Positions 55,016 to 64,000 of a stretch of DNA of 64,000 nt are shown in pieces. Within the stretch, counting starts at the first letter, position 1. Each line of letters begins with the position of its first letter. This DNA comes from Polytrichum commune (taxonomy: Eukaryota; Streptophyta; Polytrichopsida; Polytrichales; Polytrichaceae): NCBI GenBank assembly GCA_950295325.1, contig OX485808.1, positions 21,224,527-21,288,526 of the forward strand. Direction: 5' to 3'. The translations under genes and the position numbers were made by a program. The notes beneath the pieces were generated by a model. It was not told where the DNA came from. It saw only the letters and a list, made by a program, of their open reading frames with translations, and made no database searches.

Positions 55016-57020
55016 TAGATCCAAGTAGTAGGGAATGTGCTATGAATTTTTGAAGTTAGAAGGTAGATAGGTGGGTTGGAAGGGTCGGTTGAATCGACCT
55101 CACACTTCCAACCCTCATAACTTTTGCATTTCTTATCCGATTAGAGTGATTTTTAGATCATTGGAAAGATAATTTGGTGCACTAAGTATAAATATTATGC
55201 TTAGGATTAAATTACAGGGCAGAATAACACTTTATATTTTAATTGTTAACTAAGGTACGCTTACTACCAAACTAGTTACAAAGAAGGAGGCAAGGTCGAC
55301 GCTCGGAAAGTGGAGCAAGGAAGGAGGTAGCGGCTCGGCCTACATCAAGCCCAAATCAACCGAGGAAAATTGAGGTAAATTAACTAACCTTAAGCCTTCC
55401 ATTTAGGATTGGAGGGAGCACGGCTAAGGTACGCATCTCTAAACCCACTCACCTATCTCGTAAGGTCAAGTGGCTTGACCACTTGACCGCCAAGGGAGTA
55501 CCCAATTCCATTGTTTTCGGGGCCCTTGGTATGTTTTGTGGTAGTAGCTTCATTTATTAGCAAGTTTCGTGTGTGGTAAGTCGGATTAATCACCGACACG
55601 ACCACTCTGAATGTTGTTGGTGGAAAGGTGGGGTTAATGACCCGCGAATCCACTATTATGTTGTTGGCCCCATAGATTGGGAGTAATGGCCCCAATTTAT
55701 GAAGATTGCGCAACAGGTTGAACCTACAGGTCGCCCGTCACCCTGGTCCCATTGAGTTGCATTTCGTGGTCTATCCAGTGTAAACACATTTAACAATCAA
55801 AACATACAAAATAAATCGTAAACCCTTGTTGGCAAGAGACCCGAGGTAAGGGGTGATGCCTAATATGTTAATGTAGTAAGTTAGGACGTGCAAACAAAAG
55901 TAAGTAATTAAGAAGGAATTTGTGTGAAGGGTGGAACTTAGGCCAAGTTCCCCCGCTTAGAAAACTAAATAGAACTAAATAAAGAAATAGGAAGAATTGA
56001 ATGGTCCATCAAATTGTCGTTATTCCGTTCGTTGAGTTAGGGTGGTATGAGTCACACCCGGTTGGGTGTATCAGAACCATCCCAATTCACAAATTAGGAT
56101 TGCCTTGGTTTCAAGGCTGGTGCGTCTGCGCGTAGAATAGGTTGTAGGTTAAGGTTAGAACTAGATATGAAATTGGTTAGTGGAGTTTAAAGCCACACTA
56201 GTAAAAAACTAAGGCCTAACCTCCGGAGGTACTACGACGCATATTTAATCTCCCTTAAAAATCTAACTACTCACGTTATACACCTATCATCCGGGTTCGG
56301 CTTGGGCGCCTGCAAATGCAGGCCACCTTCACCGAAGGGCTTGTGTGATACTTTTAGGCTCCCTCGAAAGGGGGTGGCCCAAAAGTACCACATTAGTCTT
56401 TGGTCTAAACATAGGTATCAAGAAAGAAAAAAATATGTTTAGTCTTAATTGAATATTTGATGAATATTCAAAGTCAAAACTACTAGCTTCCTTATACCAA
56501 TCCATAGGTCCCGTGTATGGCAACCTCGCATATGATGAGGACCCCCACCTTCATTGCCTAGAACCAACACAACATAGCTGGGTACTAGACCCAAACTACA
56601 TCAAAGCCCAAGTAGTAATGGTATGCAAAGCCACACGGCTACCTCCATGATCCCTCCCGGTTCGCTTGCAAAACCATCACCTTGCATCCCAGGAACCGAC
56701 CCCCTTTGCATCCCGGGAAATGACCCTTTTGTGCTTTGTGGGCCTACCTCCTTGGCATTGTGAATAGAATGACTAGAATAGGCATTGACAAGCCACCCTA
56801 ATCCCACCTTGAACCAACCCGAGATAGAGTGGAGCCCGTTACATACCCTACATGAAGGTCATGGAGGCCGCTATGAGGGCATCGCCAGCCCTGTCCCTTC
56901 AACGGCAACTACCGTGAATAGGTAGCCCGGGCTCGGGCCAACGGGCTCGGCACCCAGCCCGCTATGCACCGGGTCCCGCTAAAGGGACTCCCGCTCTCAG
57001 CATAATTTTTGACTTTGCCA
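55016..57020. other. Unclassified repeat DNA, no gene
   Basis: No open frame with a recognised product. It holds a perfect inverted repeat, GGTCAAGTGG / CCACTTGACC, at 55464-55488, and GC-rich self-complementary words near 56930-56995 (GGGTCCC then GGGAC). The right part immediately precedes the Harbinger ORF1 and may contain its promoter and terminal repeat, which I could not fix. Confidence 0.4.
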
Positions 57021-57051: not shown

Positions 57052-58203
57052 ATGGCACACCAAATGGCGGGAAAGCCACGCAAGGGAAGAAATTTCAGTG
57101 CCGATGAGGAGAGAAGCTTGTGTAGGAGTTTTCTTGCTGTTTCGCAAGACCCAATTTGTGGCAATGGTCAACGCAATTCTGCATTCTGGGATCGCATCAC
57201 CGCTCATTTCAATCATAACAAACCACGCTCAAATCCTGTGAGACCAGCTGGGTCGCTAGAGACAAAATGGGGTCAAATCAAACACGATGTGGGCAAATTT
57301 TGTGGGGCGTACAAGCAAGTGTTTGATTGCAGAGAGTCCGGCGCCTCCCTTGACGATGTTGTTGACAAATCGCTCCAATTTTATCGGGATAGGCATCCCA
57401 AGCACCAAGAATTTGCTTACTTGCATTGTTGGCATGTTTTGAAGGAGATTCCGAGGTGGTGGGATTCCCCTGTGGATGTGCAAAGGCGATCAGCGGAGAT
57501 TAGCCCTAGAGGGCAAAGCATGGGGAAGTGGAAATCTCCTTCTCCTCCGACAATTGTTGGTGAGGTTGGCACCTCAGATGAACGAAGTGCCGAAGAAGAT
57601 GAGGTCGTTGTGGCAGATGAACCTGTTGCGGGGAGGTTTGTCGCCGCGAGTCCCACTGGGTTTCCCCCCCGTCCCACCAGGCCGTAGGGGTCGAAGTCGG
57701 CGAAGGTGGATTTGTTGCAGCAGAAGAAACGGGAGAAGGTATTGGCCGCTCAAGCCCGAGCTACTGAAACTATGGCTGAAGCAAGCCTTCGCAAGGCTAA
57801 TGCACTGCAGGACCAATGTGCATTGTCCCTTTTCACCATGCCCTTGGAAGAGGGCATCACCGAGGAGGCTAGAAGGTATTTCACCCTCCGTCGGCAGGAG
57901 GAGATTGAAAGACTGGAGCGCCGAATGAGAGTGGAGAGGCGTGCTGCGGAGCTAGAGGAGCTTGAACATTCGAAGCTCATCAAGGACCGCAACCTGGAGT
58001 CGAACTCGCGAAGGAATCGCGTTGCAGTCCCTGTGGTGCCCTTCGACACCACTGCACCACCCTGGGCACCCTCTCCGACCAATTTGGATTCAAGCGCTAG
58101 AGTTGCGGATGATACTCCTCGCAATTTGCCCGTCTTCACAGGTGAATGCCGAAACCCTGGGGTTGACATTCTTGGGAGTAGGGTTTCCTGTTGTTTGGTT
58201 TGA
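57052..58203 (+). pseudogene. PIF/Harbinger ORF1, Myb/SANT-like DNA-binding protein with internal TAG
   Basis: ATG 57052 has a good context (CCACCATGG). The N-terminal domain (residues about 10-140) has FSADEERSLCRSFL, FWDRI--HFN, SLETKWGQIKHDV and the RDRHP--F-YLHCWHVLK stretch of plant Harbinger-type Myb/SANT proteins. A disordered linker follows, then a coiled-coil-like region (LLQQKKREKVLAAQARATE, RRQEEIERLERRMRVERRA). One in-frame TAG at 57685-57687 separates the two halves, which are in the same frame. A possible further exon lies at about 58268-58470. In the family this protein joins the transposase for nuclear import and DNA binding. The TAG probably disables it. Confidence 0.75.
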
Positions 58204-58711
58204 TTACGGGTTTAGTTTTAGGGTGCTGGGATTGTTGGTTGTGGGTTTAGGGCGTTTTTGGGTTTAGGAATTCGCCGAATGCTGGGAATCCATTGTCGGA
58301 CCTGGTCACCGCTACCTCGGAGACGATTCAAGTCTGTGAAGCTGTGATGCTGGAGGCAACACTCTTTCGTGGACTCCCAGAAACAGATATTCCACACCCT
58401 TATCAACAACGCCACGCATAAATGCAACCCTCTCCTGCTGTTGAAGCACAACGTCGAATTCGTGAAGAGCAGGTGAATTTCCTGGAGCTGAGTAGGTGGC
58501 TACAACTGCTCATTACGAGTTTTTGGGCTTCGAAATGTCTCTTTTATAATGTTCAATGCTTGAACTGGATGCTTTTGGCACCTTGTTAGTTGGAGACAGC
58601 CATGAAGGCGATGTGAACAATTGGTCATGTATGTGCTCATCTGTACTGTGTGGTAGGGTTCAGCTTTCTTTGATTAGAGATGACTCAACATAATCGTGGT
58701 TGGTATGTCAG

Positions 58712-59172
58712 GATGCGTGCACACGCAAGAAGGGCAAGAAGAACAAGTCCAAATTTTCGAAGAAGAAGGCACCTTCACGTACCGATTCCAGCATTCCCAT
58801 TTTCAGCCTTGAGGACATCGAGGAGGGCATGGAGGGTACGTCAACCTCTTCGTAGCAAATCCACTCACCTCTCTTTGCTCTCAACTACGTGATCTGTTCT
58901 TTAGGGTTCTTCTTGGTTTAGAATACATTGATATTGTTAAGTGTTTGAGCTGAATTTTGTCTGCTTGGTTTACAGGTCTAGAAGACGAGAAGGCATCACT
59001 TGTGTCCACCAAGAACTTCGAAAAGAGGTTTGGTCAGTCACCAGTATTTGTTGCCTCCACACTGCTTGAAAATGGAGGTGTCCATCACTCCGCCAGCCCA
59101 GGGTCGCTCCTCAAGGAAGCTATTCATGTCATCAGCTGTGGTTACGAAGACAAGACAGAATGGGGAAAAGAG
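58712..59172 (+). pseudogene. Captured cellulose synthase (CesA) fragment, two exons
   Basis: Exon a (58712-58835) begins after CAG and encodes a Lys-rich stretch then SIPIFSLEDIEEGMEG. Exon b (58976-59172) follows a TTTACAG acceptor in matching phase and encodes [20 protein letters not shown], then [19 protein letters not shown]. This is the conserved region of CesA just before the GWIYGS block of the catalytic domain. After a GTTAGT donor, a GW remnant near 59314 may be the start of the next exon, but it soon stops. The catalytic D,D,D,QxxRW residues and all membrane segments are absent. Splice sites are intact, so the piece was copied as genomic DNA, not through mRNA. Confidence 0.85.
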
Positions 59173-59500
59173 GTTAGTAAGACCAAACTTGCAACTCAAA
59201 GCATATCTTTACACATCCTCAGCCTGATATTGCTTTGGGGTAGCAATTGTGTCCCACATCGTGCCCAATGTTTGTGGTCGTTGTGTCTGATGTAATTTCC
59301 TGTGATGTGGCAGGTTGGATGGATGGTTTCCAGATTGAGGTCGTCTCAAATGCTTGGTGAGACTGGCGTATATCAACACAACAATTTACCCCTTGACATC
59401 TTGGTGGAGAACATCTCAATCAGGTGACAAACACAACACACCAGAATACAAAACCACTTTGTGGATTAGTCTTTCTTGCTTGCTTGCTTGTATTCAGTAA

Positions 59501-60366
59501 GTGCAGCCCGTATTGGGAATGCATACCTATATGGAGGTAGATGAGTCCTTCGTATGGAGTCTCTTACATTCGGTGCAGTCGACACAAGTTCGTGACATGA
59601 ACAATGCATTTGATTAAGGATGTCACGGAATAATGTGGTGTAAGATTGTAGCGTGCACATCCATTGTACATGTGGATTGGTGGAACCCTTATTGGGGAAT
59701 GCATACCTATGTGGAGCTACAACCTTCATATGGACTATGTTTTATTCGGAGTATTCGACATAAGCTCGTGACATAAGCAATGCATTTGAATAAGTATGTC
59801 ACTGAAAAATGTAGTGTAGGATTGTAGCGTGCACATCGATTGTACATGTGGACGTTCCTGAGTCGGTGCGGCCCTTATTGGAAATGCGCACTTATATGGA
59901 GTTATAACCTGCATATGGACTCTCTTATGCTTGGAGCTCGTGACATAACCAATGCGTTTGAATAAGGATTCACGGAAAATGGTAGTGCAGGATCCTAGCG
60001 GGCGCATAGATTATACATGTGGATTGGTGCAGCCCTTATTCGAAATGCATACCTAAATGGAGTTATAGCCTTCATATGGACCCTCTTATGCTTGGAGCTC
60101 GTGACTTAAGCTCATGATATAGCCAATGCATTTGAACAAGGACGTCATGGAATAATGTAGTGCAGGATTGTAGTGGGCATATTGATTGTGCATTTGGACG
60201 TTCCTGAGTTGGTGCAGCCCTTGTTGTATAGCCTTCATATGGACTATTTTATACTCGGAGGATCGACACAGACACATGACATAAGCAATGCATTTGAATA
60301 AGGATGTCACGGAAATGTTGTGCAGGATTGTAGCTTGTACAACGATTATACTTGTGGACGTTCCTA
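59501..60366. repeat. Diverged minisatellite, five units of about 155-185 bp
   Basis: Units start near 59501, 59681, 59866, 60027 and 60212. Each has a GTGCAGCCCTTATT word, then GAAATGCATACCTA-ATGGAG, CTTCATATGGAC, GACATAAGCAATGCATTTGA, AAGGATGTCACGGAA and GTGCAGGATTGTAGCG. It sits between the CesA and KAS I fragments. Confidence 0.9.
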
Positions 60367-60602
60367 ACACAGTTAATGAGAGGTGGTGGCAACTTGGCAC
60401 AATCTGATTAGAGTTGAAATTTCTACACAGCCAGCAATGCTAGAGCTTCATATTACTGTTCTCTGTAATTGGAATAGTGCTTCAAATATTTGGTCAAATC
60501 TGTGTGTAGTGAGTTGGCATCAGTTGTATACATTAGAAACCTGGAGAATGTGGGGAAAGCCTTCAATCTAAAGGTAGCTCTCTTGTGTCAATATATATGC
60601 AG

Positions 60603-61180
60603 GTCGACAAGCAAAGGGTTGGGGTTCTTATTGGTACTGGCATGGGTGGGCTTACGGTATTCTCAGATGGTGTCCAAGCCCTAGTGGAGAAAGGCTACAA
60701 AAGAATTACACCATTTTTTATTCCTTACGCCATCACCAACATGGGTTCAACCCTGTTGGCTATTGACCTGGGGCTCATGGGGCCGAACTATTCGATCTCC
60801 ACAGCATGTGCAACCTCCAACTATTGTTTCTACGCTGTAGCAAATCATATTCGGAGAGGAGAGTCAGATATAATGATTGCCGGAGGCACGGAGGCAGCAA
60901 TTCTCCCTATTGGCCTCGGTGAGGGTTTTGTCATGGGTGAGGGTGCTGGTGTTTTGGTGAGTTACAAAGCACACTCATATTTATCTGTATCATATTGCAA
61001 GAAATTCTAGTTGCTTGTATTGCCAGCCAGAGTGGTTGATGTATATCTTCTTTTAAGGGACATCAGTGAGTACTTGAGATTGCCCACTCACTTTTAAAGC
61101 ACTAACTGATCTCCAGGTGATGGAAAGTCTGGAGCATGCATTGAAAAGAGGAGCACCAATTAGCACAGGGCTGGGCTGAA
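60603..61180 (+). pseudogene. Captured 3-oxoacyl-ACP synthase I (KAS I) fragment
   Basis: Exon 60603-60956 follows an ATGCAG acceptor and encodes VGVLIGTGMGGLTVFSDG, TPFFIPYAITNMGS, the active-site region STACATSNYCF (nucleophilic Cys) and MIAGGTEAAILPIGLG. It then jumps directly to EGFVMGEGAGVL. About 30 residues present in the plant enzyme between these blocks are missing. The next exon (61117 on) continues in phase with VMESLEHALKRGAPI and then ends at a stop. The two catalytic histidines would lie further on and are absent. The family condenses malonyl-ACP with acyl-ACP in plastid fatty acid synthesis; this fragment cannot. The intron is kept, so it was captured from genomic DNA. Confidence 0.88.
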
Positions 61181-61809
61181 TGGCTTTGAAGGTAAGATTG
61201 CTGCTGAACTCCTAAGCGTGTCAACTAAGTGGCATCATAGACGTTCCATACTTTTCATTTTCATTTTCAAACATGCTCAACAGGGATGATATTTCAATAA
61301 TTATGTTGAACAAGGTAGAAGTTGAGATTGATATCATTAGCCTTTACAGGACATTCCCAACGTGTGACAATCTTGTGTGTAGAACTGCATCAAAAACTAA
61401 CATCATGATTGTCCTTGCAGTTCCTAGGTGGGGTGAGGCAGATACCAATGGTAATTAGCCTTTACAGGATATTGACTTGCTACTGCGAAGCGAGAAGACT
61501 GTGGTGCCCAAACTTGACACATGGTATGTGTAGTTTATGTAGAAGCAATTTGCTTTGTATTGTTGTTGTTCGGTATTTGCTTGCCATCTCATTTCAGTGA
61601 ATGCTACGCCAAACTCCCTCACAATTGTCTCCAGAAATGCGCATTTTTTGTCCCAGCCGATCTGTGGTCGATTAGTACTAACTAGCATTGGTTGTTTAAT
61701 TGCAGATTGCTCCACGTACGGACAGAATGCTCTACGCAGGAAGGCATACTCCTGGAACACTCGTCGCTTCTTATGGTGTTTGACATTCGTGTAACTTGCA
61801 TGTGATTGC

Positions 61810-62155
61810 AGGAGATCAAGAGGACTCGAACTGGGGTGACACATCGGCAATCCCGGACACCCAAGTGGCTGCAGGGGAGTCACAACGCGACGAGACGATC
61901 GGTGGCAGCGAAGACAGAAGACTTGAAGGACCTAGTCAGTGTAGAACTTTTAGAGCAGGGTTAAGTGTAGAAGTGCCACAAACTGATTATGTGTGCTCCC
62001 AGCCTAGTGCATTTGGACATACAAATGTTATGTATGGTTTGCATAGTGTAGGTTTAAGTCAAAATCAAGGTGCGTTTAGTGAGAATCACATGATGGGTTA
62101 CAGAAATGGTGGGACTAGCCTAAACCTCAATGCCCAATTTTTTTCACAATAAAGA
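61810..62155 (+). CDS. Hypothetical terminal exon beside the captured fragments
   Basis: An open stretch after a GATTGCAG acceptor near 61808, rich in Gly, Ser, Asn and Gln (YGLHSVG, MMGYRNGG, LNLNAQFFSQ), ends at TAA 62153-62155. It is on the same strand as ORF1 and both captured fragments and lies directly before the end of the convergent transposase. It could be the last exon of ORF1 or of a chimeric transcript. No domain is recognised. Confidence 0.35.
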
Positions 62156-62202
62156 GAGTCTCTTATTATCAGAATTCAAATTTGCAGCCCTATGGTGTAA
62201 AT

Positions 62203-63345
62203 CTAAGTCTGCAGCCCTCCTTTCACCATCCACAAGTGTTCAATGAGATCATTGCGCAAAGCAAAGTGTGCCTCAACATTCTCAAGTTCCCTAGTGCCTG
62301 ATCGCAACTCTCGAAATGATAGCGGATGCCTCACCCGCTCAACCGGAAGGCCCCAATCACCAAAAGCCTCTAGTGACAATCCTTGCTCATCTTCTATGAT
62401 CATGTTGTGCAAGATTATACATGCGATCATGATATCTTCAATTATGACAAGATCCCATTGTCGGACGGGGTTTTTCAAAATTTCAAACCTCGCTTGCAAT
62501 ACGCCAAAGGCACGCTCGACATCCTTTCGGGCACCTTCTTGGCACTTAGTGAAGTGCTCTTTCATCTCCCCAATTGGCTCATGGATCGGTTGCACGAAGC
62601 ACGCCCACGGCGGGTAAATGCCATCTGCAAGAAGGTAGAATCGAGGGTAGACATGTCCATTGACTTGGAAGCTGAGATCGCGGCCTTCTCCTCGAAGTAG
62701 GTTGGAAACAAGAGGTGATCTATCTAGAACATTGATATCATTATTTCCCCCGGGGAGTCCAAAGAATGCATGCCATATCCACAAGCTTTGATCAGCTATG
62801 GCCTCGAGGATAATAGAGCAGTTCTTGTCCTTGTCCTGGAATTGCCCTTGCCACGCAACCGGGCAATTCTTCCAAATCCAGTGCATACAATCAATGCTCC
62901 CAAACATACCGGGGAAGCCATGGGCCTCATTGATGGCCATTTGGCGCTCAAAATCTTGACGTGTGGGCTGCCTCAAGTAAGTGGACTCAAAACATACCCG
63001 CACTGCCTTTACAAACCGGTGCATGCTCTCATGGGCTGTGGACTCCCCCAATCTACAATACTCATCGCACGCGTCTGCAGGCAATCCATACGCAAGCATC
63101 CTCAATGTTGCGGTGCATTTTTGCAATGTGCTCAATCCCAACCTACCAACTGCATCAACACCTTGGACAAACCATGGATCACATGTCGCCACTGCATCCA
63201 TAATGGAAACGACAATTCCCGTCTCATTCTAAATTGCCTACGGAAATGAGTCAGACCATAGGTGGGATTCTCCGCAAAGTAATCCTGATACAAGAGGTTA
63301 TGGTATGCTTCTGTCGCGCACCTCTCCATGAGGAGTGCCCGAAAC
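62203..63345 (-). pseudogene. PIF/Harbinger DDE transposase, one frameshift
   Basis: The N-terminal piece (about 63345-63205) has YFAENPTY and HFRRQFRM, typical of plant Harbinger transposases. The main piece (63201-62203, 332 codons) begins in another frame and continues with LSTLQKCTATLRMLAYG, the first catalytic Asp in GSIDCMHW, GGNNDINVLDRSPL, the second Asp in LLADGIYP, and the Glu in DVERAFGVLQARF. One 1-nt shift near 63205-63215 (just after FRMRREL) separates them; the rest of the catalytic core is intact. Its 3' end faces ORF1 and the captured fragments. It is not active as it stands unless the shift is a sequencing error. Confidence 0.92.
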
Positions 63346-63429
63346 ACCATGGGCACAAGGGGGACCCCGGAGTGACACCCGGGACTTGTGGCGCTGTTGG
63401 TGAGAGGGCCCAAGTGATCCTAGTGTGGG

Positions 63430-64000
63430 TGAGGGCCCCGGGCGTTGGGAACGCCTCCCACCCACGAAGACTAGGAGGCACAAGGGTAAGGCCATGAGCT
63501 ATGCGTAGCTCATGGCGTGGTGATTCTAGAATGCTCAAGAACACCTCAATCGGAGGTGTGAGCTAGGAGTTATGGCCATTTGAGTGGGGCGCTGTCCCGG
63601 GACAGCGCCCTGGTACAGCAGTGCCTGGGAGTGATTCCCGGGACTGCAAAGGTTCAAACAGGCATAACGTCCTCAATACTTGTCCGAATGGGGCAAGTGA
63701 GGAGTCCATCGGCATCTACGTGAAGCGTAGATGAAGATGGAGTGGTTGGTTGTTATGATCAGACATCATACAAGGAAGTTATGATGGTCTGAAGCTGCTA
63801 GGGGGTTCTAGGCCCAGCAGCTAAAGGAAAATGTCCACTTGGCCCCAACTCTTGGTAGAGAGACAAGAGGTTGGTTGACGGTGGGGTAGGGGCCCCGCGT
63901 GAAGTCCTAGAGGCTTATATGGGTGAGGTGGTGTGGCCTCACCCACCCGAGGCCGAACGGCACGGCCTCCATGGGCTTTGGCCCATTGTGAGGCCATAGT
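63430..64000. repeat. Cluster of hairpin-forming inverted repeats
   Basis: Consecutive inverted repeats: GGCGTT/AACGCC (63441-63455), GCCATGAGCTA/TAGCTCATGGC (63491-63516), ACACCTC/GAGGTGT (63541-63559), the 24-bp perfect palindrome centred at 63598/63599 (half-site GGGCGCTGTCCC), CATCTACG/CGTAGATG (63713-63733), an imperfect TCAGACATCAT/ATGATGGTCTGA pair near 63759-63795, AGCTGCT/AGCAGCT (63793-63822), and GGCCTC-ATGGGC/GCCCAT-GAGGCC (63964-63995). No ORF. It may be the structured leader or LTR of an element running off the window. Confidence 0.8.

Follow-up and report, generated by a model that had tools for sequence, protein, structure and literature searches.

The element and its captured host genes

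The 64,000-nucleotide stretch of the Polytrichum commune genome analysed here (the window, C6:21224527-21288526, with C for contig) carries a single PIF/Harbinger transposable element. The element begins at position 56877, its two ends match each other, and a 3-bp duplication, TGA, flanks it. Host gene pieces lie between the two genes of the element, ORF1 and the transposase. Searches of the host genome (408 Mb, seven large contigs of 42-78 Mb), together with local alignment to the donors, trace the cargo at 58337-61673 to five host loci on contigs 1, 7, 2, 2 and 7 (pieces A to E, Table 1). Two bits of the window copy, 61576-61607 and 61674-61773, are unmatched.

The protein evidence agrees with these assignments. 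Piece B1 matches the Pfam family of cellulose synthases (CesA, E 2.9e-22), and its PDB matches are cellulose synthases. Piece C matches the beta-ketoacyl synthase family (E 5e-25), with FabF-type enzymes as best PDB matches; its donor spans C2:40000833-40002684 overall, at 91% identity and with the main block reaching E 0. Next to the donor of piece D, exons of the same strand match ubiquitin carboxyl-terminal hydrolase (UCH; E 7e-10 and 9e-11), and they probably form one gene with it. Both the CesA and the synthase donor have additional exons beyond the captured part, indicating that the transfer went from gene to element, and the retention of donor introns indicates capture from DNA.

A preliminary description of this DNA had placed CesA and ketoacyl synthase fragments, introns kept, on the plus strand between ORF1 and the transposase and in ORF1 orientation. 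The database matches and the host donors bear this out, and both pieces are sense. Both genes are thus present, but the count of two is too low, as there are five host pieces. The span given for them, 58.5-62.1 kb, narrows to 58714 (start of CesA) to 61161 (end of the synthase); two further loci supplied 61163-61575 and 61608-61673, and 61812-62152 reads as ORF1 exon 2. Plastid KAS I is a candidate label for the synthase.

Table 1. Features of the PIF/Harbinger element in the window (window positions).
Feature	Position	Strand	Remarks
Target-site duplication TGA, left copy	56874..56876		right copy follows the right terminal inverted repeat at C6:21371604 (...GATGCCC, then TGAGGTGG)
Left terminal inverted repeat, 22 bp	56877..56898		GGGCATCGCCAGCCCTGTCCCT; partner repeat ends at C6:21371604
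ORF1 exon 1	57052..58141	+	weak NAM-associated match; in-frame stop TAG at 57685-57687 in the window copy
Predicted ORF1 intron, 3670 bp	58142..61811	+	contains all captured DNA; GT 58142-58143, AG 61810-61811
Piece A, UBX-domain gene	58337..58717	+	donor C1:16283429-16283903 (L014); sense; UBX E 0.0011, just under cut-off
Piece B1, CesA exons and introns	58714..59324	+	donor C7:35199360-35199970 (L010), 95%, E 7e-281; sense
Piece B2, CesA	59334..59402	+	donor resumes after about 200 bp lost; 93%
Piece C1, beta-ketoacyl-ACP synthase	59400..60928	+	exon end, repeat-rich intron, next exon; donor C2:40000833-40002379 (L011), 91% (94% gaps set aside); sense
Tandem repeat in synthase intron	59501..60358	+	176 bp, about 5 copies; matching repeats in donor
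Piece C2, synthase continued	60919..61161	+	about 70 donor bases lost at 10-bp overlap
Piece D, probable UCH gene	61163..61575	+	donor C2:6135227-6135794, minus strand (L012), 84-88% in three blocks; sense
Piece E, 66 bp near CIA30 gene	61608..61673	+	donor C7:32738697-32738762 (L013), 97%; candidate gene membership
ORF1 exon 2	61812..62152	+	113 codons including shared glycine codon; open frame continuing from exon 1; stop TAA 62150-62152
Transposase (Plant_tran/DDE_Tnp_4)	62203..63228	-	frame disrupted near 63228; the upstream part continues in a different frame as far as 63311
Start of LTR-type repeat	63312..64000		TG...CA, 5-bp duplication GCTTC; separates the element's right 0.6 kb

The predicted ORF1 intron and the transposase

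The prediction that every captured piece lies inside an ORF1 intron is well supported at the level of sequence, because the splice sites are kept, the frame of exon 2 is open in most copies and differences concentrate at third codon positions. A motif search found the GT in 10/10 copies and the AG in 9/9, the region being absent from L003. Exon 2 is fully open in six of nine copies (the window copy, L001, L002, L007, C5:39.38 and L005), and the window copy and L005 differ at 19, 20 and 35 first, second and third codon positions, respectively. ORF1 was found in all seven long copies of the element described below. In PIF/Harbinger elements this second gene is of Myb/SANT or NAM-associated type; here its Pfam matches are to NAM-associated (E 1.6e-4, below the cut-off) and DUF6818 (E 0.088), with no match to Myb/SANT.

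The transposase fragment at 62203-63228 matches Plant_tran (E 8.3e-87) and DDE_Tnp_4 (E 8.9e-13), as is characteristic of the DDE transposases of PIF/Harbinger elements. Together with the NAM-associated match, the Plant_tran match may link the element to the Pong branch. Transposase sequence is present in all five long copies that have both ends, with a 437-aa frame open in L002 and C5:39.38, and only about the last 190 bp of it are retained in two right-truncated copies on C2. The best-preserved copy (C5:39.36-39.38) combines an uninterrupted ORF1 exon 1 and an open exon 2 with the 437-aa transposase frame.

Ends of the element and later insertions

The right end of the window element, at C6:21371604, lies outside the window. 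An element ending at 63345 is ruled out by this location 83 kb away; no right end turned up when the 16 kb downstream were searched. The distance arises because the element was split between 63311 and 63312 by a long terminal repeat (LTR)-type repeat, which starts with TG, ends on its far side with CA and has GCTTC on both flanks. The element picks up again, for its last 0.6 kb, at C6:21370994-21371605 (96% identity to L001). The DNA inserted into the Harbinger element thus amounts to about 83 kb (window 63312-64000 onward, C6:21287838-21370993); since this exceeds one ordinary retrotransposon, it probably consists of nested or clustered insertions. The C5:39.38 copy is inserted at a TTA of a repeat whose family also supplied the repeat that splits the window element (window 63312-63923; L008/L009), and the repeat copy in the window provides a related unoccupied target site, GGCTTATATGGG.

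The preliminary description had expected terminal inverted repeats (TIRs) and 3-bp TWA duplications. The TIRs and a 3-bp target-site duplication (TSD) are present and flank both Harbinger genes, in support of gene capture within a transposase-bearing Harbinger element; the duplication in the window copy is TGA, however, and not TWA. It is TAA in L001, L002 and L007 and TTA in C5:39.38, so that the short (22-bp) TIRs and TWA duplications typical of PIF/Harbinger elements are found at the level of the family.

Sister copies

The exact TIR pattern, which diverged ends escape, occurs at 29 places in the genome. Nine of these belong to seven long copies and the other 20 to 14 further sites. All seven long copies with this left TIR, i.e. 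the window copy and six sisters, carry cargo downstream of ORF1, partly from other genes in the sisters (one C2 copy was read at its ends only, its cargo being known from search matches). Together, they draw on eleven donor loci. Five of the copies have both ends, whereas two on C2 are without the right one. The 14 further sites (L038, L039 and 12 others) hold elements built of the two ends of this family that resemble miniature inverted-repeat transposable elements; six of them match both ends and span 336-367 bp (two sites read).

L001 (C5:3.74 Mb) and C5:39.38 share with the window copy the first 50 bp of piece A as well as pieces D and E, and differ from it in between, where a piece of an alpha/beta-hydrolase-like gene (piece F) takes the place of CesA and the synthase. 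The C5:39.38 copy (C5:39.364-39.381 Mb; L023, L024) also has a 16.3-kb insert in its cargo, with tandem repeats at 78-bp and 158-bp spacings.

L002 and L007, both on C7, are 99.07% identical over 7.7 kb including the cargo, and occupy different sites, each flanked by TAA on both sides. The cargo thus travels with the Harbinger ends, a point that the preliminary description had proposed to check. It comprises pieces of a B3 transcription factor gene (weak PDB match to LEC2, E 0.057), a coatomer delta gene (PDB match, E 2e-9) and a phytocyanin-like gene, besides short ends of two more loci. The phytocyanin-like gene has one weak PDB match, to mavicyanin (E 0.0012), and a PDB search with its other exon gave no support.

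Related pieces, differently trimmed and including a gene of the Ribosomal_S2 family (probably ribosomal protein SA), are present in L006 and its inverted twin on C2. These two right-truncated copies (C2:23.225 Mb and C2:23.178 Mb; L036, L037) lie about 41 kb apart in inverted orientation and are 99.9-100% identical where compared, flanks included, which points either to segmental duplication in inverted orientation or to an artefact of the assembly. Among the distant relatives L003, L004, L005 and L015, none (0/4) matches any of the known donor loci, against which alone they were tested.

Junctions, order of capture and orientation

Adjoining pieces overlap by 0-10 bp or are separated by short fillers of up to 32 bp. 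In L002 and L006, the coatomer delta piece is nested within the B3 piece, which in turn is nested within the phytocyanin-like piece. The junction between B3 and coatomer is common to both copies, so that capture proceeded stepwise and the deletions that followed differ. A TIR-like 10-mer, ACAGGGCTGG, next to the junction with piece D that the window copy and L001 have in common was discarded, as 2 of 400 random cargo positions score at least 9, which is unconvincing with 20 junctions, two of which are the same one.

Timing by identity is rough, because the donors are under selection. With gaps set aside, the window copy and L001 are 98.4% identical on the left and 98.6% on the right. Identity to the donor is 95.7% for piece B (98.5% in the main exon), 94.3% for piece C over the main block (95.3-96.9% in exon-rich parts) and 98.4-98.6% for piece F. 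The last value equals that of the split between the window copy and L001, and the idea that piece F predates this split was dropped. Different histories for the two halves of the window copy, suggested by a raw identity to L001 of 94.6% in the left half against 98.5% in the right, were likewise rejected, since both halves reach 98.4-98.8% once gaps are set aside. In the simplest reading, the common ancestor held CesA and the synthase, and around the time of the split the lineage of L001 and the other C5 copy gained the hydrolase piece in exchange for them and most of piece A. By the same measure, identity is 98.7-99.4% between the cargo of L002 and its donors, and 99.5% between L002 and L007.

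With each donor counted once and piece E left out, direction can be assigned for ten donors: the UBX, CesA, synthase, UCH, hydrolase, B3, coatomer delta, phytocyanin-like and ribosomal protein genes and a gene at C5:24.77 Mb, the last from a 321-aa ORF only. All ten are in ORF1 sense (two-sided binomial p = 0.00195), a bias noticed after the fact and in a small sample. Were piece E part of the CIA30 gene, it would be sense as well.

Discussion

The data are very probably explained by a PIF/Harbinger element with a cargo-tolerant ORF1 intron, which captures host DNA stepwise and whose TIRs mobilise the cargo. Host gene pieces would enter the intron as DNA in several steps, with their own introns retained, would afterwards be trimmed by deletions, and would move together with the element. 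Entry may occur by copy-in repair of breaks, or by interrupted gap repair with template switching, a route that has been proposed for Pack-type elements and for plant filler DNA. As the predicted intron would be spliced out, we propose that the cargo leaves ORF1 intact. Antisense pieces would be disfavoured, perhaps owing to cryptic stops or poly(A) signals that they add to the transcript.

Several observations weigh against this explanation. Exon 2 has an early stop in three of nine copies (L004, L006 and L015). The window copy looks dead, in view of the stop in ORF1 exon 1 and the broken transposase frame. In L001, ORF1 is frameshifted and the transposase frame is split, and one ORF1 frameshift is common to L002, L006 and L007, so that these copies probably moved in trans. 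The case for cargo being tolerated by an autonomous copy therefore depends on C5:39.38, which itself has the 16-kb insert in the cargo. The C/D junction of the window copy (61159-61163) and the F/D junction of L001 (C5:3.745 Mb) lie within 2-3 bases of each other, a near-coincidence that random capture does not predict. Finally, five of the ten direction calls are weak, with low domain scores or ORFs only (UBX, hydrolase, B3, phytocyanin-like and the C5:24.77-Mb gene), and the UCH call is taken from neighbouring exons.

The fragments could instead have been brought by a separate gene-carrying transposon, such as a Helitron or a Pack-MULE, that landed in a plain Harbinger element. Helitrons and MULEs commonly hold multiple gene fragments, and stepwise capture has been published for maize Helitrons (PMC3288121). 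Yet the fragments stem from five source loci, internal borders join two donors, and the same place in the sister copies is occupied by different sets, all of which makes this origin highly improbable. A simple scan for Helitron ends (a hairpin with a stem of at least 6, plus CTRR) found none in 61561-61830 on the plus strand or in 58251-58420 on the minus strand, and the longest word shared by the outer borders at 58336 and 61673 is 6 bp. Cargo searches, in which all candidates were scored, matched D-E in the two C5 sisters and otherwise single donors, and no A-E block bounded by its own ends at another place. Cargo-free copies and foreign transposon borders around the fragments, which the preliminary description had named as contrary evidence, were not what was found: cargo is present in all six of the nearest sister copies, and neither reading the junctions by eye nor the scans at the two outer borders revealed a border of another transposon. 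Helitrons are rolling-circle elements without TIRs or TSDs, unlike the elements described here.

Insertion of gene pieces into old, dead copies by host break repair, independently of transposition, fits the fact that several copies are dead, and the overlaps and fillers at the junctions resemble end-joining or template switching. It appears improbable all the same, as cargo is common to copies at different sites (L002 and L007; A, D and E in the window copy and the C5 copies), so that much of it must be older than the movement. The sense orientation, the retained splice sites and the placement behind the start of ORF1 might further suggest a working chimeric gene, or a source of small RNA against CesA and the synthase. 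With a stop in ORF1, about 70 bp gone from the synthase exon and all pieces partial, such a role is very doubtful, and a function of the chimeric array in this dead copy is unlikely.

A bolder extension of the cargo-tolerant intron, which we regard as rather unlikely, makes the ORF1 intron a one-way collector that keeps only pieces in ORF1 direction, the host exons being spliced into recurrent ORF1-host chimeric mRNAs or yielding host-mimicking RNA that blunts silencing. If true, a cut-and-paste element would recurrently make such chimeric or silencing-blunting RNAs. The seven long copies, eleven donor loci, unoccupied related site and relatives without this cargo form a compact natural series that records the order of capture, the nesting and the losses. 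A testable idea of why some transposon families hoard genes, namely that they have an insert-tolerant intron, also follows from the sense bias and the intron position.

Comparison with known systems

Capture as such has precedents, and the preliminary description went too far in calling it unusual for a transposase-bearing Harbinger element. In grapevine, the Pifvine-3 elements are transposase-bearing PIF elements with host exons and introns, some common to several copies, much as here (PMC2528002). The additional DNA there is reported to form a long 5' region of up to 3.5 kb, and the section concerned does not mention an ORF1 intron, a mosaic of several donors or an orientation rule (PMC2528002). 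Turmoil-1 of C. elegans similarly is a Harbinger element with a transposase that has captured two coding pieces from its host, but the host is an animal and the capture lies in the terminal repeats (PMC2572040). The serial gain of several gene fragments is shared with maize Helitrons (PMC3288121), and CACTA elements also figure in the comparison literature (PMC8978399). A literature search at the level of titles and beginnings of abstracts, with most subscription papers outside its coverage, returned no report of ORF1-intron cargo or of a sense-only rule in PIF/Harbinger elements; these two features may be new.

The Pack-PIFs of maize and rice have PIF TIRs, TTA/TAA duplications and captured coding DNA, like the elements described here, and maize Pack-TYPE elements often contain more than one locus (PMC8903248). 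Fusion of neighbouring copies has been proposed as their route of capture (PMC8903248). Pack-TYPE elements are non-autonomous by definition, whereas the present ones have gene fragments between their TIRs and carry a transposase as well. The pipeline of that work files elements with transposase matches as autonomous, so that elements like these go uncounted (PMC8903248). This is a warning that pipelines that define Pack-type elements by the absence of a transposase overlook such cases. That the present case is real is well supported, and it represents an instructive variant of the known transduplication by PIF elements.

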